DNA from: Nitrospirales bacterium
Lineage (GTDB): Bacteria > Nitrospirota > Nitrospiria > Nitrospirales > UBA8639
Direction: 5' to 3'
NCBI GenBank assembly: GCA_029261355.1
Contig: JAJDBM010000017.1
Coordinates: 81,736 to 145,735, forward strand
DNA: 64,000 nucleotides
Within the stretch, counting starts at the first letter, position 1, and each line of letters begins with the position of its first letter. A program made the translations under genes and the position numbers. Under the pieces are notes generated by a model. That model worked only from the letters and a program-made list of their open reading frames with translations, had not been told where the DNA came from and ran no database searches. Shown one piece after another: positions 44,863-62,780 of this stretch.

Positions 44863-44938
44863 TGAATAGTTTCATGAGAATTTTAGGAAGTTAAAGTTAA
44901 AAGTGTTGAATTTCTTTTCCTTGCAAGGAGGCCGGTCC

Positions 44939-47900
44939 ATGTTTTATCAGAAGTTTTCAATGAATCCATCACGAAAATGGCTTGGTGTACTCGCCGCTGC
45001 CATGATGTTCATGCCGCTTACTTCAGTCGGTGCTGAAGAAGGGAAGTCTTCGCCTATGGTTCACAAAACCGGGATGGCGCATCAAGACTCTCCTGGATGG
45101 GCAGAGAAGTTGAAGGGGCAGACCATTGTGGAGAACTCAGTGGAAGGAAGAGCGGAGCGAGCTGCGTTGGTTGAGCTTCAACACCAACGGTTGATGGAGC
45201 AAATGGAGAAAGAGACAGCAGGCTCTCCAAATACTGGTGCCTTTAATACGATGTCGATGATGCATCAATATGGTGCAGGGAAAGAAAATGGACTCTTAAT
45301 GTCTACCTCCGGAACCGAACCGGTTACCGGTAGTGGCGGGTTGTGCCCAAAAACCGCACAAGTGAAACATTATGATATTTCAGCGATTAATGCTGAAATT
45401 ACACTCAATCAGTGGTTAGATTACTACCCAGGATACATGTATGTCCTGACTGAAAACATTGAAAATGTTCGGAAAGAAGAAGCCAAGAATGCCGAGGCCC
45501 GAGAGGACGAAGGCCACCTTAATCCAGGCGGGGTCAAAAACGGTATTCAGGGCCAATATATTCAGCCATTAGTCATTCGTGGCAATCAAGGTGATTGTGT
45601 CAAGTTTACGCTGAGAAATAAACTTGAGTTTGGAGAAGACGTCAGTCTTCATATCAATGGATCGGATATGGTGATGAGCAGCACTGGCCGTCCAGCAACT
45701 ACGACCAATCCAGATGCCGTGGCTGCAGGACCTGATGAGGATGCAGAGGAAGGAACTGAAGGCGAGTCCATTGAAATGGAATGGTATATTCATCCAGATT
45801 CTCAAGAAGGTGCGAAGCAGTTCCATAGTTACAGCAATGACCGCGAATTAACCGTTTTGGGAATGATGGGAGTGTTTATCGTGGAGCCAGCTGGTTCCAA
45901 GTACTGGGAACCATTGGGAACCGGCCAAGCGACGGAAGCCACGAGTGGTTGGCAGGTCATGATTGATACACCAAATGGCCCAGATTTTCGAGAGTTTATC
46001 TTGATCTACCATGAGGTTGGAGATGAAGCATTCAGACCTGTCAATAAACATGGAGATTTCTTACCACAAAGAGATCCGTTGACTGATGCTTATCGTCCTG
46101 GTGCTCGTGCATTGAATTACCGAAGTGAACCATTTGGTATTAACAATATGCATGTGCAGCATGAGTACTTTGGGTTTGAAGACGAATCGATGGCATACAG
46201 CAGTTATACATTTGGAGATGCGAGTCCAACAATTCCTCGAAGCTACTTGGGTGATCCTGCAAAGTTTAGGATTGTTCATGGTGGCTCAGAAGTATTCCAT
46301 TCCCATCATCCTCACGGTGGGTCTATACGGTGGCAACGAAGCCCACGCGCAACTCAAATGCCAATTTGGAACACTGGACAAACTGGACCAGTAAAATATC
46401 CTGTTATTCGCACAAAGTCAGACCGAGTCGATGTTGAAGTCATTGGGCCATCAGAGGCACTTGATCTTGAAACCGAATGTGGTTCGGGTCTCTGTCAATG
46501 GTTGGCAGGTGATTTCTTGTTCCATTGTCATGTAGCCCACCATTATGTGGCAGGAATGTGGGGATATTGGCGTGTCTACAATACGTTGCAAGTTCCTGGG
46601 ATTCAAAATGATGTCATGGCTCCATTACGTGAATTGCCAGACCGTTTAGATCGAATTCATAAGCCAGTGACGTCAGAAAAACTTGTTGGAACAACAGTCA
46701 GCTGGTTTGGAACAAATTTCAAGATTGTCGGGAGTGGAAAAAGTAATTGGAAATCCGATCCAAGGGTTGTCAACATTAAGGATTGGGTTGAAATGCAGTT
46801 AGTGACTCAGGGCAAACCTGGTCATAAAGATGATCAAGAAGGACAGCTAAAGTCTTATGATGCCACAGTGATCGACTGGGTTTGGGATGGCAGTAAAGCC
46901 ATGAGTGAGAAAGAAGCAAATATTGGCCCAAATCCAAAATACCACCCAGAATGGCAGGGCTATGAACCAGGAAAGCGACGCGGGATTTGGTTTGAGCCAA
47001 AAACTGGGAAAGTGGCATGGCCATGGTTGACCCCGCATTTTGGGAAACGTGTTCCATTTGCCCCTGATCATAACCCAGCGCCATGGTTAGAAATGATTCA
47101 TGTTGATGATGAAGGAAAGAGGACTGTGAATCCAGCTAAGCCTGGTGAGAACGGTCGTTGGAGCCTTTGCCCTGACAGAGCCGGGCATCAAGAGTATGAC
47201 GTTCACTTCATTAAATTGCCAATTGAATTGTCTGCGGCTGAAGGAGATCAAGAAGCTATTGTTGACCCCAATGGGCTGCTCTATGTTCTACATGAAGAAG
47301 AGGAAGCTATTCGCGGGGATAATAATCTGAAGTACCCACTTGTGTTTCGTGCGAATATGTATGATTGCATGGACTGGACGTTAACGAGTGAATGGGAAGA
47401 TGACGATATTACAAATTTCCAATCATCTAAAATTAATACCCATTTTCATTTTGTGCAGTTTGATAATCAAGCATCAGATGGTGTGATTTCAGGTTTTTCA
47501 TATGAACAATCCATGCGACCTTTTACGATGTTTGAAAAGAAAAAGAAAAAGGGGTTGCCGGTTCCGATGAATTCTAAATTCACTAAACCTGGGAAAAAAG
47601 GTGAAAAAACTATCCATTTGACAAATGCTAAACAATATCATGTTGGAACCTTGGTGTTGGTTGGTGCAGATAACGTTAAAGATAAAGAGATCAGACGAAT
47701 TGTTGCGGTGGGTGGTTCTGCAAATGGCTCCGCTTCAGCGGGATCATCAAATAGTTCTGATTATACGGTAAGCCCAGGTGATACATTAGGTAAAATTGCT
47801 GGTTCACATGGAACATCCGTTACTGCCTTAAAAGATATGAATGGGCTGTCTGATAAAAATCTTATTATGGTTGGTCAAAAATTGAAGGTCCCTGGTGGTG

Positions 47901-50074
47901 AAAGCCAAGAAGCTTCAGCGCCCGTTGCAGCTGGTGGGGAGACCCTGACGTTTGATAAGCCACTTGAGAATAATCACCCTGTTGGCGATATCGTTACAGT
48001 AGAGTTTGTTCGTCAACGTTTTTGGGCAGATGCTGACGTTGGATCAGTTTTTTGTCATGACCATGCCTTTGGTGGAACAACATGGCCCCATGGTGCGGTT
48101 TGTACATTCCTCATCGAACCATTTGGTTCGACCTGGCATGACCCGAAAACTGGTAAGCCGATTCGATCAGGTCCAGTTGCTGATATTCACACAATTGAGA
48201 GAGTCGGTCATGATGTTGCCGGGAGTTTCCGGGAATTAACAATTCATGTCATGGATACCGTACCTCATACTGTGAACGTAGTGACCGCGGGTAATCCTCC
48301 TGGGCAGCCAATTGAAGTGGCTCTCGAAGCTGGACGAACCGTGTCGTTTATTATGCCACCAAGTGAAAAGATTAAAATGACTCCGATGCCATTCCTGAAT
48401 GGTGGAACACATACAACTGGGGGAGCATTTAATTTCCGTGCTGAACCTTTTGCTCAGCGTTTAGCGAATAACCCTGAAACATCGCAGATTTTCAGCAGTA
48501 CCGTACATGGAGCGCCAAGCACTCCTATGGTTCGTGCGTATTTAGGAGATGCGATTGTATTCCGGTTGGTTGATGTGACGATGAATGAAAGTAATGTGTT
48601 TTCGGTTTCAGGTCATACCTTCTGGACCGAACGTTATGCGCAAGAAGCTAATAGGAAAAACTCCATTCACATCGGTATAGCTGAACGCTATGACTTGGTA
48701 GTCGCAGAGGCGGGTGGCCCTCGACATTTGCCGGGTGACTATATGTACTTCAATGGTCGGAGTTCTAAGTTTTCTGAAGGTTCATGGGGACTTATTCGGG
48801 TGTTAGAGAAGCCAGTTGCTGACCTCCAACTTCTTCCGAATAAAGCTTATGGAAAAGAGGGTATTCCCTCACCGCTTCCAGTATGTCCTAAAGATGCCCC
48901 AGTGAAGTCATTTAATGTGGCTGCGATTGACTTCCCATCAATGAGCTTCAATCCAAACATTGAAGAAGCTATTGAGGTAGACTTTGAACGAAAAATAGAA
49001 ATTCAAAATCCTGATGCTAAAATCTATGTCCTAGAAGAAGAAGTGAATAAAGTATCAGGCGATTATCATCCAATGCCGCTCACCATACGTGCAAATTTAG
49101 GTGATTGTATAAAGGTCAACCTCACGAACAAGATGAAGGAAAGCCGAGCATCGTTCTCTGCATTTGGCTTGGCGTTTGATCCAAAAGATTCTCAGGGTCT
49201 GAATTTAGGTGATAATCCAGGAGATCAAACCATAGCCCCAGGCGAGAAGCGTACGTATACCTATTACGCCGATCCTTTCATTGGAGAGACACAGTCTTTA
49301 GTGTGGGACTTTGGTAATGTAGCCATGAATCCACGAAATGGTTTATTTGGCGCAGTCATTATCGGTCCTAAGGGGTCGCAATACAGAGATCCTCTAACTG
49401 GGGCTGATGTGTCATTGAAAAATTCTTGGCAGGCGGATGTGTTAGTTGATCATACGATCCCAGGTAATGAAAAGCGTGAAAATTACCGTGATGTAGCATT
49501 GTTCTTTCAAGATGAAGATAACATCATTGGAACAAGTTTCATGCCTTACGTACAAAATGTGGCAGGTTTAGTGGGTATCAATTACCGAAGCGAGCCCTAT
49601 CCTTACCGTGAAGAGCAAGGATGTTCATTGGGACGGATGTTCCAACCTTGCGAAGTGGATGATCCAAAAGATCCTGCAACACCGACAATTGTGTCTCATG
49701 CTGGTGACCCTGTGAGAATCCATGTATTTGGTGCTAGTAGTGAACAAAATGGGATGTTTACACTTGAGAAACATGAATGGCCCATTGAACCGTTCCTTCC
49801 AGGTGCGGATATGATCAGCACAGTTGAATTTGCTGGATCTGAAACGATTGATGCTTTTGTCCCATCAGCTGGTGGTGTTTATGCACTTGCCGGTGACTAT
49901 ATTTATGGTAATGCCAGGCTTCCATATTCCCAGTCTGGACAATGGGGTTATTTCAGGGTCTTGCCTAAAGGTGACCAGAGTATTCAGTCATTAAGTGGTG
50001 GGCAACCTGGTATTCAAGAGGCTCAAGCGAACCCATCTGAAGACGCTGATATCATGCCTGTTGCTTTCAAGTAG
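44939..50074 (+). CDS. Giant exported multicopper oxidase with permuted copper loops and an inserted LysM domain
   Basis: 1711 residues from ATG 44939, chosen for AAGGAGG seven bases upstream; a TTG at 44903 is also in frame. A signal peptide (about 1-30, cleaved near SVGAEE) sends it out of the cytoplasm. Multiple cupredoxin units follow. The one complete copper set is L3 HSHHPH (residues 454-459), L4 HCHVAHHYVAGM (529-540), L1 HFH (835-837) and L2 HDH (1040-1042), so type 1 and trinuclear sites are predicted. A LysM domain (about 942-987) sits between L1 and L2. The C-terminal third (about 1300-1711) has cupredoxin-like repeats with no ligands. Manganese or another metal, or an organic donor, may be the substrate; this is not determined. 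A strong terminator follows. Confidence 0.88.
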   Translation: MFYQKFSMNPSRKWLGVLAAAMMFMPLTSVGAEEGKSSPMVHKTGMAHQDSPGWAEKLKGQTIVENSVEGRAERAALVELQHQRLMEQMEKETAGSPNTGAFNTMSMMHQYGAGKENGLLMSTSGTEPVTGSGGLCPKTAQVKHYDISAINAEITLNQWLDYYPGYMYVLTENIENVRKEEAKNAEAREDEGHLNPGGVKNGIQGQYIQPLVIRGNQGDCVKFTLRNKLEFGEDVSLHINGSDMVMSSTGRPATTTNPDAVAAGPDEDAEEGTEGESIEMEWYIHPDSQEGAKQFHSYSNDRELTVLGMMGVFIVEPAGSKYWEPLGTGQATEATSGWQVMIDTPNGPDFREFILIYHEVGDEAFRPVNKHGDFLPQRDPLTDAYRPGARALNYRSEPFGINNMHVQHEYFGFEDESMAYSSYTFGDASPTIPRSYLGDPAKFRIVHGGSEVFHSHHPHGGSIRWQRSPRATQMPIWNTGQTGPVKYPVIRTKSDRVDVEVIGPSEALDLETECGSGLCQWLAGDFLFHCHVAHHYVAGMWGYWRVYNTLQVPGIQNDVMAPLRELPDRLDRIHKPVTSEKLVGTTVSWFGTNFKIVGSGKSNWKSDPRVVNIKDWVEMQLVTQGKPGHKDDQEGQLKSYDATVIDWVWDGSKAMSEKEANIGPNPKYHPEWQGYEPGKRRGIWFEPKTGKVAWPWLTPHFGKRVPFAPDHNPAPWLEMIHVDDEGKRTVNPAKPGENGRWSLCPDRAGHQEYDVHFIKLPIELSAAEGDQEAIVDPNGLLYVLHEEEEAIRGDNNLKYPLVFRANMYDCMDWTLTSEWEDDDITNFQSSKINTHFHFVQFDNQASDGVISGFSYEQSMRPFTMFEKKKKKGLPVPMNSKFTKPGKKGEKTIHLTNAKQYHVGTLVLVGADNVKDKEIRRIVAVGGSANGSASAGSSNSSDYTVSPGDTLGKIAGSHGTSVTALKDMNGLSDKNLIMVGQKLKVPGGESQEASAPVAAGGETLTFDKPLENNHPVGDIVTVEFVRQRFWADADVGSVFCHDHAFGGTTWPHGAVCTFLIEPFGSTWHDPKTGKPIRSGPVADIHTIERVGHDVAGSFRELTIHVMDTVPHTVNVVTAGNPPGQPIEVALEAGRTVSFIMPPSEKIKMTPMPFLNGGTHTTGGAFNFRAEPFAQRLANNPETSQIFSSTVHGAPSTPMVRAYLGDAIVFRLVDVTMNESNVFSVSGHTFWTERYAQEANRKNSIHIGIAERYDLVVAEAGGPRHLPGDYMYFNGRSSKFSEGSWGLIRVLEKPVADLQLLPNKAYGKEGIPSPLPVCPKDAPVKSFNVAAIDFPSMSFNPNIEEAIEVDFERKIEIQNPDAKIYVLEEEVNKVSGDYHPMPLTIRANLGDCIKVNLTNKMKESRASFSAFGLAFDPKDSQGLNLGDNPGDQTIAPGEKRTYTYYADPFIGETQSLVWDFGNVAMNPRNGLFGAVIIGPKGSQYRDPLTGADVSLKNSWQADVLVDHTIPGNEKRENYRDVALFFQDEDNIIGTSFMPYVQNVAGLVGINYRSEPYPYREEQGCSLGRMFQPCEVDDPKDPATPTIVSHAGDPVRIHVFGASSEQNGMFTLEKHEWPIEPFLPGADMISTVEFAGSETIDAFVPSAGGVYALAGDYIYGNARLPYSQSGQWGYFRVLPKGDQSIQSLSGGQPGIQEAQANPSEDADIMPVAFK
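47762..47899 (+). other. LysM domain nested inside the multicopper oxidase
   Basis: Encodes YTVSPGDTLGKIAGSHG, then TALKDMNGL and LIMVGQKLKVP, a canonical LysM. It is flanked by a Ser/Gly-rich linker (SANGSASAGSSNSS) and a linker EASAPVAAGG. The flanks resemble two halves of one small beta domain (TIHLTNAKQYHVGTLVLVG before; ETLTFDKPLENNHPVGDIV after), so the LysM seems to be inserted into an insertion. LysM binds peptidoglycan and could tether the enzyme to the wall. Confidence 0.85.
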
Positions 50075-50106
50075 CATGTAAGGCTGATTATTTAGTGGCA
50101 GTAATG

Positions 50107-50140
50107 ACGGGGAAGCCGGAGTTCGGCTTCCCCGTTTTTT
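50107..50140 (+). terminator. Rho-independent terminator after the multicopper oxidase
   Basis: 12-bp perfect stem ACGGGGAAGCCG / CGGCTTCCCCGT with loop GAGTT and a T6 tail, 33 bases past the stop. Confidence 0.93.
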
Positions 50141-50241: not shown

Positions 50242-51162
50242 ATGAGGTTGTGGAAAGTTTTGGTTGGTGTTTGTGTATTGATAGGCTTTGCGGACTCCTT
50301 TGTTTTGGCCTATACAGAAATTCCCGTAGAGCAGGGAGGAACGATTCGAGGGAAAGTGACATTAACTGGCGAAACACCTAGGCCGATGGCTTTCAATCTC
50401 GTTACCATTCCGGATGCAGTGTATTGTGGGCGAATTTCAACGGGTACTGGCTGGAGAATTGTGGAGGACTTTCTTATTGCCCCAGATGGAGCGCTCAAGG
50501 ATGCCGTCATCATGCTCAAGGGTATACAAAAGGGAAAGCCCTTTAAGACAGAGAAAGTTCGAGTTGAGGCCATCGATTGCGATTTTCTTCCATTCGTGAA
50601 TGTGATGAAAAAACAAGATGAGCTTACCGTGGTGAATATGGATCCGATTGAACATGATATTCAAGGGTATGAAACAGCGAGGAAGCGAGGTGCACGTGTT
50701 TTATTTAATCGCCCCCTTCCTATGAATCCGTTTCATAAGGTCCTTGGTATGATGAATAGTCATAAGCACATGGCAGGAAAGCCCATGGTAGAAAATGTTC
50801 ACTTAAGAAAAGGACGAAATATTTTTGTTATGCAATGCGGGTTTCACCCCTACATGTTTTCATGGGGGTTAATTGTTGAGAATCCGTACTATGCTATTAC
50901 TCCAGAATCTGGAGAGTTTGAAATTTCAGATGTACCTCCTGGAGACTATACATTGACTGTTTGGCATGCAGGAATGAAAAAGTATCTTGAAAAGAATATT
51001 AGTGTGAAGCCACATGGGGCAGAGGTAGTTAACTTTGAATACCAAACCGTTTCTGGGAAACGACGGAGTGTTCATGAGATGCACGATAACCCTCGCTTTG
51101 GTTTAGAACTTTTAGATGAAGGAGAAGAGATTATTCCTTCTCTTCGTCTTCAGATACCGTAA
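50242..51162 (+). CDS. Exported amicyanin-like cupredoxin with carboxypeptidase-regulatory-like domain (copy 1)
   Basis: 306 residues from ATG 50242 (AGAGGAGG upstream). A signal peptide ends near VLAYTE. A first segment has YCGRISTGTGW and later MDPIEHDIQGYET, where the His is a candidate type 1 ligand. Then VMQCGFHPYMFSW gives C-x2-H-x2-M, the spacing of amicyanin. A C-terminal beta-sandwich (EFEISDVPPGDYTLTVWH) follows. So it is probably a blue-copper electron carrier with an extra binding domain. Seven bases separate it from a close paralogue. Confidence 0.78.
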   Translation: MRLWKVLVGVCVLIGFADSFVLAYTEIPVEQGGTIRGKVTLTGETPRPMAFNLVTIPDAVYCGRISTGTGWRIVEDFLIAPDGALKDAVIMLKGIQKGKPFKTEKVRVEAIDCDFLPFVNVMKKQDELTVVNMDPIEHDIQGYETARKRGARVLFNRPLPMNPFHKVLGMMNSHKHMAGKPMVENVHLRKGRNIFVMQCGFHPYMFSWGLIVENPYYAITPESGEFEISDVPPGDYTLTVWHAGMKKYLEKNISVKPHGAEVVNFEYQTVSGKRRSVHEMHDNPRFGLELLDEGEEIIPSLRLQIP

Positions 51163-51169
51163 GGATTTC

Positions 51170-52108
51170 ATGCGAATGAAAATATGTATCAGTCTTACGG
51201 TGTTTCTGTTTGTCTACTCTTCTTTCTCTCTGGGTAGTTCCGTCGACCTTATTCATGCCTATGAAGTGACTGAGGTGACAAATGCAGGGTCATTGGAGGG
51301 GGTGGTGATGTTACTAGGTCCACCTCCTGAACCAAAGGCGTATAATTTAGTGACATTTCCTGACCCAGAATACTGTGGAAGGATTTCAACAGGGAATGGG
51401 TGGCGATTGCTGAGAGATTTTCTTGTGAATGATCAACGGCAGGTTCAAGATGTTGTGGTATTTTTTGAAAAGATTCAGGCCGGGAAACCATTTTCTTTGT
51501 CCGTTCCTCGTATTTCAGCTCAGGATTGCCAGTTCCGCCCATTTACTACCATTATACGGAGTGGGCATGGAGTTGAGGTGATTAATATGGATCCCGTTAT
51601 GCATGATATTCAAGCGTACGAAACGTCAAAACGACAAGGTGCGAGAGTATTATTTAACTCTCCATTGCCGTTTAATCGACTCCACCATCGTGGTGATATG
51701 CATGCCTCCCACTCTCACAGCCCAAGCGAGTCGCTCGTTCGACAATTTAGCTTAAGCAAGGGACGTAAGACCTTTGTCATGCAATGTGGGTTTCATGCCT
51801 TTATGGAGAGTTGGGCTATTGCTGTAGAGAATCCATATTATGCCTTCACGGATTCCAATGGTAGGTTTTTAATAGATCAGATCCCTCCAGGCACCTACCG
51901 TGTTCATGCATGGCACCCGAGTATTAGGGAGGTAATTGCTCAAACTATTACCATCAACTCTGAGGAACGAGCCTTACTCACGTTTAGACTTCCCGCTCCT
52001 AGTAAACGACGGACCGCGCATAAATTGCGCACACCTTCGCGTTTTACTCCTGCAGCACTTGGTCGTCCTATCAATATTCAGCCGTTGCTTGAACGCCAAG
52101 TCCCATGA
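51170..52108 (+). CDS. Exported amicyanin-like cupredoxin with carboxypeptidase-regulatory-like domain (copy 2)
   Basis: 312 residues from ATG 51170, with TAAGG upstream. Same layout as copy 1: signal peptide, EYCGRISTGNGW, MDPVMHDIQAYET (candidate His ligand), VMQCGFHAFMESW (C-x2-H-x2-M), then a C-terminal domain (RFLIDQIPPGTYRVHAWH). A His-rich insert (HHRGDMHASHSHS) lies between the ligand segments. Its stop overlaps the next gene (ATGA), so copies 1 and 2 and the LolA-like gene form one operon. Confidence 0.78.
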   Translation: MRMKICISLTVFLFVYSSFSLGSSVDLIHAYEVTEVTNAGSLEGVVMLLGPPPEPKAYNLVTFPDPEYCGRISTGNGWRLLRDFLVNDQRQVQDVVVFFEKIQAGKPFSLSVPRISAQDCQFRPFTTIIRSGHGVEVINMDPVMHDIQAYETSKRQGARVLFNSPLPFNRLHHRGDMHASHSHSPSESLVRQFSLSKGRKTFVMQCGFHAFMESWAIAVENPYYAFTDSNGRFLIDQIPPGTYRVHAWHPSIREVIAQTITINSEERALLTFRLPAPSKRRTAHKLRTPSRFTPAALGRPINIQPLLERQVP

Positions 52109-56535: not shown

Positions 56536-57348
56536 ATGAGGAATCGTCAATCTTTGACTGTATGTCTCCTTGCCGGAGCCGCACTGTTGGTCGCTCCAAT
56601 GATTGCGCAAGCAGGTGGAACGATTAAAGGTAAAGTGACCTTTAACGGTAAGGTCCCTGCTCCCAAGGAATTTGCATTTGGAAAATTCCCGAACGTGGAA
56701 TTTTGTAAAAAGAATCCAAGTAAAAGTGCTGATGGAGAAACCCGTTTATTAAAAGAGGTTGAAATCGATGGTAGCAAGGGGTTGAAAAATGCCGTGGTGG
56801 CGGTTCGTGACATTAAAGATAAAGCTTGGATGGGAACCTTTAAAAAGGCTCCTTCACAAGAAGTTGTCGCAAAATTATGTGAGTTTCTTCCCTTTACTGG
56901 AGTGGTTGTGAGCAAGGGGCAATTCAAAGTGACTAATGATGATGCGGATGCTGATGATCCAAAATCAAAAGAGGGTGTGTTGCATAATCCTCATAGCTTT
57001 GACGTATTAGGTGCGAAATCATCAACGCTGTTTAATATTGGTTTAGCCAAAAAGGGCTCTTCTCTTCAGAAAACCATGAAGCTTCGTATGGCCAAAAAAG
57101 GCGGAGTGGTACGGTTGCAATGTGATCAACATGAGTTTATGCAATCATGGTACCTTCCGGTGACCAATCCGTTTTTTGCCACCAGTGGGGCCGATGGAAC
57201 ATTTGAAATTAAGGACGTTCCTGCTGGAAAGCACAAACTCTTGGTCTGGCATCCGCTTGCTGCAAAGAATGCCGTGAAGAAGGCCATTGAAATTGAAGTT
57301 GATGTGAAAGATGGTGGAACAGTCGAAGCCAACTTTGATATCAAATAA
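56536..57348 (+). CDS. Exported amicyanin-like cupredoxin with carboxypeptidase-regulatory-like domain (copy 3)
   Basis: 270 residues; signal peptide (LLAGAALLVAPMIAQA). A more diverged relative of copies 1 and 2. The candidate ligands are His in VLHNPHSFDV and the loop LQCDQHEFMQSW (C-x2-H-x2-M), followed by GTFEIKDVPAGKHKLLVWH. It is rich in Lys. A strong ribosome site (CCAGGAGG) and a terminator right after it suggest a separate, well-expressed unit. Confidence 0.78.
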   Translation: MRNRQSLTVCLLAGAALLVAPMIAQAGGTIKGKVTFNGKVPAPKEFAFGKFPNVEFCKKNPSKSADGETRLLKEVEIDGSKGLKNAVVAVRDIKDKAWMGTFKKAPSQEVVAKLCEFLPFTGVVVSKGQFKVTNDDADADDPKSKEGVLHNPHSFDVLGAKSSTLFNIGLAKKGSSLQKTMKLRMAKKGGVVRLQCDQHEFMQSWYLPVTNPFFATSGADGTFEIKDVPAGKHKLLVWHPLAAKNAVKKAIEIEVDVKDGGTVEANFDIK

Positions 57349-59811: not shown

Positions 59812-60894
59812 ATGCTTCACCGATTGGCCTTACGAGTCGTTCCGCAACTCAATGCGCTTGTCACCGAACCTGCCGTCAGAAAACGTAAGCGGCTCGTCAT
59901 GTTGGCACCAGGGATGGTGGCGTTTGGTCTCTACCATCTTCTCAAGTCCTCTCTCCCTTTGGATGATCCGTTTATTCTGCTTGGATTTAGTGGGTTTTTG
60001 GCTTCACTTTCCGCTATGTGGTCCTATCGAATGGGGCGGAATGTTCCTGTCTTAACTATTATTCAGGAAGATGGCCTGCGACGTATTGCCTGGGTTGTCG
60101 GTTGGATTGGATTTGCTTATGGCATGCAACTCTCGCTTCTTGTCTTAGCCTTGTTAAGAATATTTGTGGCCTATGACTTTCTTCTTCATCCAGAAGGTCC
60201 GGCGATGATGGCTATTATTATTGCCAGTTCTTCTGTCACGCGAGATGCGTTTGAGTTGGGCTATATTCGATTGAAAGAACAACAAGGACAAAAGATTGTG
60301 ACCTTTCCTGATGGTCGTCCCTTCCGGCGTTGGATTCAGTTAGAGTCGGCCACGATGGGGAGATGGACCGTAAGCGCATCGATTATAGGCATGAGTAGTG
60401 CCTTCTTCTTATTGTCCTTTGGAGGCATTGGAAGTCATGACCTCACACAATCGATTGTGATTTCCCTTCTTGCGGCTTGTTTAGGGTTGGTGGCTTTTTA
60501 CGCTGGAGAGTCTAGATCAGGAGATTGGCGCAAGGGAGTTGCTCAAAACGGATGGTTAGCCTTAGGTCGGTTTTGGTTGTGGCCCTGCCTGACCTTTGCC
60601 CTGACGTATTATTTAGTGCAAGCCGGTTTCTTTATTTTTTTAGTGCAAATGGAGCAGCTGCAAGGTGTTGCTCAGATTTTTACGGCTGGGGCGACAGCAG
60701 CCCTTATGGCAGGATATAGTTTTTACCTAGGCCGATGTAAGCTTCTCGAAGCAGAAACTCAACAGGGTATTCCTGAAAATATTCAAAGTTGTCCATTTGT
60801 GATGGGTATTTTAAATAAAGCGGGATATTTCCCAAAGGGGAATACGGCCATTCCTGAAGTTGAGACATCGATACAAACGGAAAAGGTGGGGTGA
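59812..60894 (+). CDS. Unrecognised multi-pass membrane protein
   Basis: 360 residues, about eight helices (LVMLAPGMVAFGLYHLL, IGFAYGMQLSLLVLALL, SASIIGMSSAFFLLSFGG, FTAGATAALMAGYSFYLG). No motif for haem, metal or quinone stands out and I do not recognise a family. It lies between the PCP_red protein and the bd-like oxidase, its stop overlapping the oxidase start by four bases, so it is probably a subunit or assembly factor. Confidence 0.7.
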   Translation: MLHRLALRVVPQLNALVTEPAVRKRKRLVMLAPGMVAFGLYHLLKSSLPLDDPFILLGFSGFLASLSAMWSYRMGRNVPVLTIIQEDGLRRIAWVVGWIGFAYGMQLSLLVLALLRIFVAYDFLLHPEGPAMMAIIIASSSVTRDAFELGYIRLKEQQGQKIVTFPDGRPFRRWIQLESATMGRWTVSASIIGMSSAFFLLSFGGIGSHDLTQSIVISLLAACLGLVAFYAGESRSGDWRKGVAQNGWLALGRFWLWPCLTFALTYYLVQAGFFIFLVQMEQLQGVAQIFTAGATAALMAGYSFYLGRCKLLEAETQQGIPENIQSCPFVMGILNKAGYFPKGNTAIPEVETSIQTEKVG

Positions 60895-62780
60895 GGGAAT
60901 CTGTGATATTTATTGGTCGGGTCATACTCATTTGGCTGGTTGTCGCGTTGACTTGGAATGGCGCCGTCGGAGGAGTGTCCCCTGCCTATGCCGAGACGCC
61001 TTCTTCTCCTGTCATTTCTGAAGATATTTATTACCAAACAGAAGGGACTCCGAGTGGTCCCTCTGCACGTTCAGTCAAGTCTACCTATCCAGACGTCAAG
61101 TTTATTGATAATCGAGTCTTAGTGTGGGTGGTGATGCAGCAGCACACCTACTTTGGTGGATTTGTTCTTGCCCTTCCGTTCTTTGCCGTTCTTTTAGAAT
61201 TCTTAGGACTCACTCGACGTGACCCTGATTCGATTCGCCGCTATGATGGCTTGGCGCACGACATCATTCGAGTGGCCGTGGTTTCTTTATCCTTTACCGC
61301 GTTTTTAGGTGCCGTCGTATTAGGAATTTTTATTAATTTGTATCCTGGGTTCATGAGTTATATGGGATCGACATTTAAAAGCTTGATGCCCATGTATGCG
61401 GGTGTCTTTGTCAGTGTCTCGTTTCTTTTGGTGTTGTATTACTACAGTTGGGATTACCTCTCGTCGCCGGGGAAAAAGTGGATACACATGGCTATTGGGG
61501 TTCTCGTGAATGTGATGGGTGCGGTCTTGTTGTTTTCAGCCAATGCCTGGGCTTCATTTATGATGGCTCCTGCTGGAGTCGATGCCGATGGTCGATTTTT
61601 AGGGAATATTTGGAATTTGATGCATTCTCCGCTCTGGAACCCTTTGAATACTCATCGATTCCTTGCGGATATCATGTCAGGTGGTGCAGTGGTTGTGGCC
61701 TACGCAGCCTATCGTTATTTAACCACACGGTCGGAGAAGGAGCGGGCCTATTATGATTGGGTGGGCTATGTGTTTATTCTCGTTGTAGTCTGTGCTCTGC
61801 TACCGATGCCAATTGCTGGGTATTGGTTGATGAAAGCCGTGTTCCAATTCCGGTCTCAAATGGGAGTCACCATGATGGGGGGTCTTCTCTCATGGATGTT
61901 TGTCATTCAAGCCATCACTATCGGTGTCTTATTTTTAGGGATTAATTACTACATTTGGCAATCGTTGGGACGTGTGAAAGGTGGAGAACGCTTCCATTCA
62001 TATTTTAGAGTCATTACGTTTGCCATGTTGGCCTGCTTTATTGTTTGGTTTACTCCGCATACTATTGCGACAACTCCAACTGAAATGAAGGCAATGGGGG
62101 CAGCACAGCATCCGGTGATTGGACAGTTTGGAGTGATGTCGGCCAAGAATGGAGCGATCAACCTCATGATTTGTCTCACGGCACTCAGTTATCTCTTATA
62201 TCGGCGGGCGAACTATGTCATTGTGACGCCTTGGGCTCGAAGGGGGGATATTGCTTTGGTGGCATTGTTTACGTTGGGCATGATGAATATCCTGTGGTTA
62301 GCTATTTATGGGTTTTATATTCCTGCCAATGTGCGGGTTGGATTATCGATGCCTCAGGGGGTAACCACAGCAACGGTTGTACTCGGAGGTCTTGCAATTA
62401 ATTATCTCATGTTGCGGCATGCCAAGGCCGTCGGGCCGATAGCCTGGGGTAAAATTTCAGTACGCGGAATGGTTGTGCTATTCGGAGTGGCGGCGGCATT
62501 TACTTGGGTAATGGGGTTAATGGGATATATTCGATCAGCCGGTCGACTTGGATGGCATGTGAATGAATTACTTCAAGATGTCTCTCCTTGGTCGTTTACC
62601 CCTGCGATTAGTTTTGCCGCAAAAATGGTGACAGTGAATATGGTGTTGTACTGGACCTCAGTATTTTTCATGTTCTGGTTAAGTCGGCGAGATTACCAAA
62701 CGGCTGAGGAGCGAATTGAGACTCGAGTGCCAGCCACTCCACTTGTGCAGTCGCTTTCACGAGAGGAAACATCGGTATGA
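60891..62780 (+). CDS. Cytochrome bd-like oxidase subunit I
   Basis: 629 residues with a signal-like N-terminus (IWLVVALTWNGAVGG, cut near AYAETP) and about 13-14 helices. Relationship to CydA is seen in VVMQQHTYFGGFVLALPFF (the high-spin haem His region), NTHRFLADIMSGG (low-spin haem His region) and GRLGWHVNELL, where true CydA has GRQPW. No CydB gene follows. Such bd-like proteins are known from Nitrospirota. GTG start overlaps the preceding gene. Confidence 0.82.
   Translation: MRESVIFIGRVILIWLVVALTWNGAVGGVSPAYAETPSSPVISEDIYYQTEGTPSGPSARSVKSTYPDVKFIDNRVLVWVVMQQHTYFGGFVLALPFFAVLLEFLGLTRRDPDSIRRYDGLAHDIIRVAVVSLSFTAFLGAVVLGIFINLYPGFMSYMGSTFKSLMPMYAGVFVSVSFLLVLYYYSWDYLSSPGKKWIHMAIGVLVNVMGAVLLFSANAWASFMMAPAGVDADGRFLGNIWNLMHSPLWNPLNTHRFLADIMSGGAVVVAYAAYRYLTTRSEKERAYYDWVGYVFILVVVCALLPMPIAGYWLMKAVFQFRSQMGVTMMGGLLSWMFVIQAITIGVLFLGINYYIWQSLGRVKGGERFHSYFRVITFAMLACFIVWFTPHTIATTPTEMKAMGAAQHPVIGQFGVMSAKNGAINLMICLTALSYLLYRRANYVIVTPWARRGDIALVALFTLGMMNILWLAIYGFYIPANVRVGLSMPQGVTTATVVLGGLAINYLMLRHAKAVGPIAWGKISVRGMVVLFGVAAAFTWVMGLMGYIRSAGRLGWHVNELLQDVSPWSFTPAISFAAKMVTVNMVLYWTSVFFMFWLSRRDYQTAEERIETRVPATPLVQSLSREETSV

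Follow-up and report, generated by a model that had tools for sequence, protein, structure and literature searches.

The copper motifs of three-domain laccases follow one another in the order L1-L2-L3-L4, and two-domain laccases form their copper site between the subunits of a trimer. Among six-domain multicopper proteins, the trinuclear site of the chordate members is located at the interface of domains 1 and 6, and that of the green-alga ferroxidases and of all bacterial six-domain oxidases analysed at the interface of domains 2 and 3, with a mononuclear site solely in domain 2; both layouts were traced back to an ancestor that had six domains and three sites (PMC3600357, 2013). In Nitrospina and Nitrospira, a multicopper oxidase resembling the manganese oxidase of Bacillus SG-1 sits beside the genes of nitrite oxidoreductase and of a bd-like oxidase, and such an oxidase may protect against reactive oxygen (PMC3578206, 2013). 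Here we describe a multicopper oxidase gene of a Nitrospirales bacterium (assembly GCA_029261355.1, contig JAJDBM010000017.1), situated in a stretch of 64,000 nucleotides that was analysed as a whole and is referred to below as the window. The gene product is probably an exported six-domain oxidase of the MnxG type, with one copper site between domains 2 and 3 and, in one family, a LysM tether.

By sequence as well as by fold, the best match in the PDB is MnxG of Bacillus sp. PL-12 / SG-1 (PDB code 9bxa), with E values of 7e-76 in a single-protein search and of 9e-92 and 2e-94 with family profiles. The HMMER segments are collinear with 9bxa, i.e., each of L3, L4, L1 and L2 pairs with its own counterpart and their order is unchanged, the counterparts in 9bxa being HVFHYH for L3, HCHLYPA (334-340) for L4, FHIH (528-531) for L1 and HDH (575-577) for L2. 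According to its entry title, 9bxa is the complex of the Mnx H340A mutant, which accounts for the Ala in its L4 motif; the wild-type motif, HCHLYPH, can be read from a published primer for domain D, and in the primer pair domain D lies upstream of domain B (PMC3039467). The collinear alignment and the primer positions agree that MnxG itself has the order L3-L4-L1-L2. Bacterial six-domain multicopper oxidases of the MnxG type are as a rule laid out in this way, and the order is already known. Both proteins have six cupredoxin domains, the second holding L3-L4 and the third L1-L2, but the oxidase described here is longer (1711 residues compared with about 1220), is related to MnxG at low identity, joins domains 2 and 3 by a longer linker and has a beta insert with a LysM domain between L1 and L2.

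The count of six domains is based on fold match and HMMER for domains 3-6, and on sequence for domains 1 and 2. Internal repeats relate domains 1-2 to domains 5-6 (E 6e-16) and domain 2 to domain 4 (E 2e-5), and a conserved Cys pair is common to the odd domains (136/220, 744/810 and 1316/1390). At the level of domains, a structure model of residues 740-1711 superposes on residues 440-1217 of 9bxa with a Z score of 21.6 over 652 residues, and on residues 1-707 of ceruloplasmin with a Z score of 17.6, whereby domain 3 lands on ceruloplasmin domain 1; the identity to MnxG in the fold alignments is 19-26%. Since domains 3-6 of the model superpose on ceruloplasmin domains 1-4, the motif order amounts to one six-domain ring shifted by two domains, and not to a new fold. 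The six-domain ring is shared with ceruloplasmin and hephaestin, but here there is one site, at the 2/3 interface. With two-domain (small) laccases, domain pair 5-6 aligns at a Z score of about 17 and domain 2 matches their L3/L4 domain; unlike in these laccases, all six domains are located in one chain.

An earlier reading of the window, made from the sequence only, had placed the trinuclear site between middle domains of a permuted chain, and had asked whether MnxG-type enzymes share the motif order. They do, given that 9bxa is collinear and that a domain 2/3 site has been reported (PMC3600357). The placement between middle domains is upheld, by homology as domains 2 and 3, but the layout is no new permutation. 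A circular permutation that is new and occurs in this lineage only, as implied by the title of that reading, would draw on the contrast with the L1-L2-L3-L4 order of three-domain laccases; it is refuted by the same order in MnxG, an order also described for every bacterial six-domain oxidase analysed and for algal ferroxidases, and it is unneeded, because a six-domain ring can retain its site at the 6/1 interface or at the 2/3 interface. We assign it next to no probability.

All four copper motifs are complete at the residues where the sequence-only reading had located them (454-540 for L3 and L4, 835-1042 for L1 and L2), in a chain that, as claimed, exceeds 1,700 residues. The conservation in homologues that it had put forward as a check was also borne out, as the ligands are invariant, or missed once, among 82 aligned homologues. 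For L3, H454 is kept in 81 of 81, H457 in 82 of 82 and H459 in 81 of 82 sequences, and each of H529, C530, H531, H535 and M540 of L4, H835 and H837 of L1, and H1040 and H1042 of L2 is kept in 82/82. Because the ligand positions are this close to invariant, the motifs are not a product of chance; the observation is confirmed far beyond it. The motif HCHxxxHxxxxM occurs a single time in the chain, and the mononuclear copper motif is confined to domain 2. The rest of the chain had been described as free of ligands, which is not entirely correct: the copper-ligand Cys and His are missing from domains 4 and 6, but domains 1, 4 and 6 each keep a single invariant His near the former ligand loops (H296, 81/81; H1226, 82/82; H1612, 78/78). 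These look like remnants of lost copper sites. H296 and H1612 could face one another across the 6/1 interface.

On the strength of collinear homology with MnxG and of conservation, the L3/L4 and L1/L2 ligands are predicted to meet in one site, which must form between domains 2 and 3. The chain would correspond to a two-domain laccase unit fused in triplicate and folded into a ceruloplasmin-like ring. Of three ancestral copper sites one would survive, in which L3/L4 of domain 2 would bind the type 1 copper and would share the trinuclear cluster with L1/L2 of domain 3. The order L3-L4-L1-L2 would arise because this sole surviving site spans domains 2 and 3. Motifs, conservation and collinearity are observed, and we infer that the site is loaded with copper. 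The electrons would be delivered to the type 1 copper by a periplasmic donor, which may be the adjacent cupredoxin-like protein or a metal ion, for example Mn(II), and O2 would very likely be reduced to water at the domain 2/3 trinuclear cluster. Either a metal or a partner protein may be the substrate.

Table 1 Features of the oxidase gene and its surroundings, in window coordinates; domain boundaries are approximate
Feature	Residues	Coordinates	Strand	Remarks
Ribosome-binding site		44925..44931	+	AAGGAGG, 5' of the ATG at 44939; sequence
Six-domain MnxG-type multicopper oxidase gene (probable)	1-1711	44939..50074	+	ATG start, 1711 residues
Putative Sec signal peptide	1-32	44939..45034	+	Basic N-terminus, hydrophobic stretch GVLAAAMMFMPLTSVGA; judged from sequence
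Cupredoxin domain 1	~133-345	45335..45973	+	Cys pair 136/220, apparently vestigial H296; alignment to MnxG and to own domains 5-6
Cupredoxin domain 2	~346-571	45974..46651	+	Ligands of the type 1 copper; one side of the trinuclear site
L3	454-459	46298..46315	+	HSHHPH
L4	529-540	46523..46558	+	HCHVAHHYVAGM
Cupredoxin domain 3	~740-1110	47156..48268	+	Second side of the trinuclear site; broken up by inserts
L1	835-837	47441..47449	+	HFH; aligned to MnxG FHIH 528-531
Insert between L1 and L2	~864-1021	47528..48001	+	Absent from MnxG, which has a tight hairpin there; located between positions 555 and 558 of MnxG
LysM domain	942-985	47762..47893	+	Nested inside the L1-L2 insert; Pfam PF01476, E 8.7e-15
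L2	1040-1042	48056..48064	+	HDH; aligned to MnxG HDH 575-577
Cupredoxin domain 4	~1111-1312	48269..48874	+	Copper site lost, invariant H1226
Cupredoxin domain 5	~1313-1540	48875..49558	+	Cys pair 1316/1390, no copper ligands
Cupredoxin domain 6	~1541-1687	49559..49999	+	Copper site lost, invariant H1612
Terminator-like hairpin		50106..50136	+	14 pairs and a T run, directly 3' of the oxidase gene; pattern match only
Partner gene, exported cupredoxin-like protein		50242..51162	+	NMDPIEH and CGFHPYM, carboxypeptidase-regulatory domain
Second copy of cupredoxin-like partner		51170..52108	+	CGFHAFM

The spacing between L1 and L2 is 202 residues, compared with 43 in MnxG. The insert responsible consists of a short beta-rich part, present in all aligned homologues, with the LysM domain nested inside it; the beta part, searched in LysM-less homologues, matched no Pfam family. 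The match to the LysM family scores 54.8 bits against a gathering cut-off of 20.9 and covers model positions 1-43 of 43, the beta-alpha-alpha-beta elements expected for LysM appear in the structure model, and the linkers are rich in Gly and Ser. The sequence-only reading had the motif positions of this span right but missed the LysM domain and a further small insert. LysM domains bind peptidoglycan or chitin, and by analogy the one inserted in this hairpin probably tethers the copy at this locus to peptidoglycan in one Nitrospirales family; the presence and position of the domain and the synteny are observed, the tethering we infer from what is known of the LysM family.

The LysM-containing oxidase genes are found at this one conserved locus. 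The domain marks a single syntenic position in one Nitrospirales family, and nearly all paralogues are without it. Among the matches listed in the genome survey, the unbroken full-length ones belong to the window's own family, and those from other families are interrupted around 913-927 and 997-1000. Two oxidase genes of one and the same genome, L009 and L072, one bearing LysM and the other not, share about 79-99% identity in most windows of 80 residues, which suggests that they were recently duplicated or converted and that LysM was retained or lost independently. The history of the domain may have been a single gain followed by loss, or spread by conversion between paralogues. In the open-access literature we found no report of LysM in a natural multicopper oxidase or in a Nitrospira oxidase, and the two terms occurred together solely in papers on an engineered fusion and on fungal genomes. 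Engineered LysM-laccase display keeps activity (PMC2754439). We regard the insertion as a modest variant, undescribed in the open literature searched, of an oxidase whose motif order is already known.

The surroundings of the oxidase gene are conserved as well. The order on the 5' side is cupredoxin-like protein, DUF192, Rieske, I42 inhibitor and aminotransferase, and on the 3' side two cupredoxin/carboxypeptidase-regulatory proteins, a HEAT protein and a DsbH-like protein. In most Nitrospirales loci a protein with a type-1-copper-like H...CxxHxxM pattern is encoded directly downstream of the oxidase, and this protein is, by its sequence pattern and position, the best candidate for a redox partner. 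A third related exported protein, at 56536-57348, has the CxxHxxM pattern together with a carboxypeptidase-regulatory-like domain. Two bd-like oxidase genes are located 11 kb and 17 kb downstream of the multicopper oxidase on the window's contig (C17 of G000); the first subunit gene occupies 60891-62780, the second lies about 6 kb further on and is followed by a cytochrome c protein. Terminator-like sites number 7 in the region compared with 4.8 expected, and the one listed in Table 1 has by far the longest stem.

The oxidase family is present in 58 of the 60 Nitrospirales genomes searched, and the window's genome contains a second, LysM-less copy on contig C70. The homologue in Candidatus Nitrospira defluvii (L033) belongs to the same lineage and keeps all ligands at about 60% identity but, unlike the oxidase described here, has no LysM domain. 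In the relative G021, a LysM-less copy (L097, C1:2930000-2949900) and its partner gene are situated between two nitrite oxidoreductase gene sets, in agreement with the gene linkage described earlier (PMC3578206). The nitrite oxidoreductase beta subunit (PF13247) gave no match in the window's genome or in the relative G003, and one to four matches in other close relatives, for which reason its absence from the window's genome is taken as an assembly gap. Four further oxidases (L012, L066, L007 and L020) are found on contigs labelled Opitutales, Nitrosomonas and Nitrospinota and nest inside the Nitrospirales tree; these contigs are probably mis-binned.

Several points weigh against the assignment as a LysM-tethered MnxG-type oxidase. 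The domain boundaries are all approximate, and the model of residues 740-1711 has a mean predicted local distance difference test score (pLDDT) of 62.5, which makes it usable at domain level only. An AlphaFold2 model of residues 130-1329, built with 32 homologues, has a mean pLDDT of 50 with domain 2 unfolded and values below 30 over most of the L3/L4 domain; its alignment contained close Nitrospirales-type sequences only and was too uniform. The match to NCBIfam NF041487, which represents the likewise large MnxG of Pseudomonas putida, is significant (E 4e-34), yet its 116.8 bits are so far below the cut-off of 3100 for this equivalog that manganese oxidation cannot be transferred by name. Of 20 distinct genes at the syntenic locus, 18 contain LysM and two (L014 and L081) lack it, and its presence on the tree needs at least four changes, implying that it was repeatedly gained or lost, or passed between paralogues; on both counts it is dispensable. 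The two syntenic genes without the domain would fit a LysM that has no anchoring role and was inserted neutrally into a loop that tolerates it, as would the fact that the loop is an insertion hot spot, occupied by another short insert in the copies of Nitrospira sensu stricto. However, a full-length LysM with a recognizable pattern (Y-V-PGD-L-IA ... N-L ... VGQ-L-VP) across diverged genes is not expected of a neutral insert, and we consider neutrality unlikely. Only tentatively do we go beyond tethering as such and propose that LysM, nested between two loops of the trinuclear site, holds the oxidase on periplasmic peptidoglycan in one family of nitrite oxidisers, where it is served by a dedicated cupredoxin partner.

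With respect to the substrate, the enzyme could be a strict manganese oxidase that converts Mn(II) to Mn(III/IV), perhaps with Mn(III) serving in defence against reactive oxygen. MnxG is its closest characterised relative, and the hypothesis has been stated for the relatives in Nitrospina and Nitrospira (PMC3578206). The similarity to MnxG is low, however, and MnxG needs MnxE and MnxF (PMC5622069), of which no neighbour was recognized among the genes examined; two neighbours compared with the PDB gave no MnxE/F match, although not every open reading frame was searched. The linkage to a cupredoxin-like partner, and that of a paralogue to nitrite oxidoreductase, fits electron transfer as well. 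We consider strict manganese oxidation possible but less likely than not. Such electron transfer could take the form of a respiratory side branch, in which cupredoxin-like proteins fed by nitrite oxidoreductase or by the bd-like complexes reduce the oxidase and make it an oxygen scavenger. The H...CxxHxxM partner directly downstream in most loci, the bd-like oxidase genes on the same contig and the position of the G021 paralogue between nitrite oxidoreductase gene sets all point in this direction, but small reductants are the better-known substrates of such multicopper oxidases, and linkage is not interaction. We give the side branch slightly less weight than strict manganese oxidation.

The oxidases of the six-domain MnxG type described here form a large, well-conserved group beside respiratory genes, and no tested function was found for the family. 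The motif order by itself adds nothing new to what is known of bacterial six-domain oxidases. The LysM insertion, if it is a true anchor, would make the enzyme of this Nitrospirales family a natural wall-tethered multicopper oxidase, and would provide a handle for localising it.
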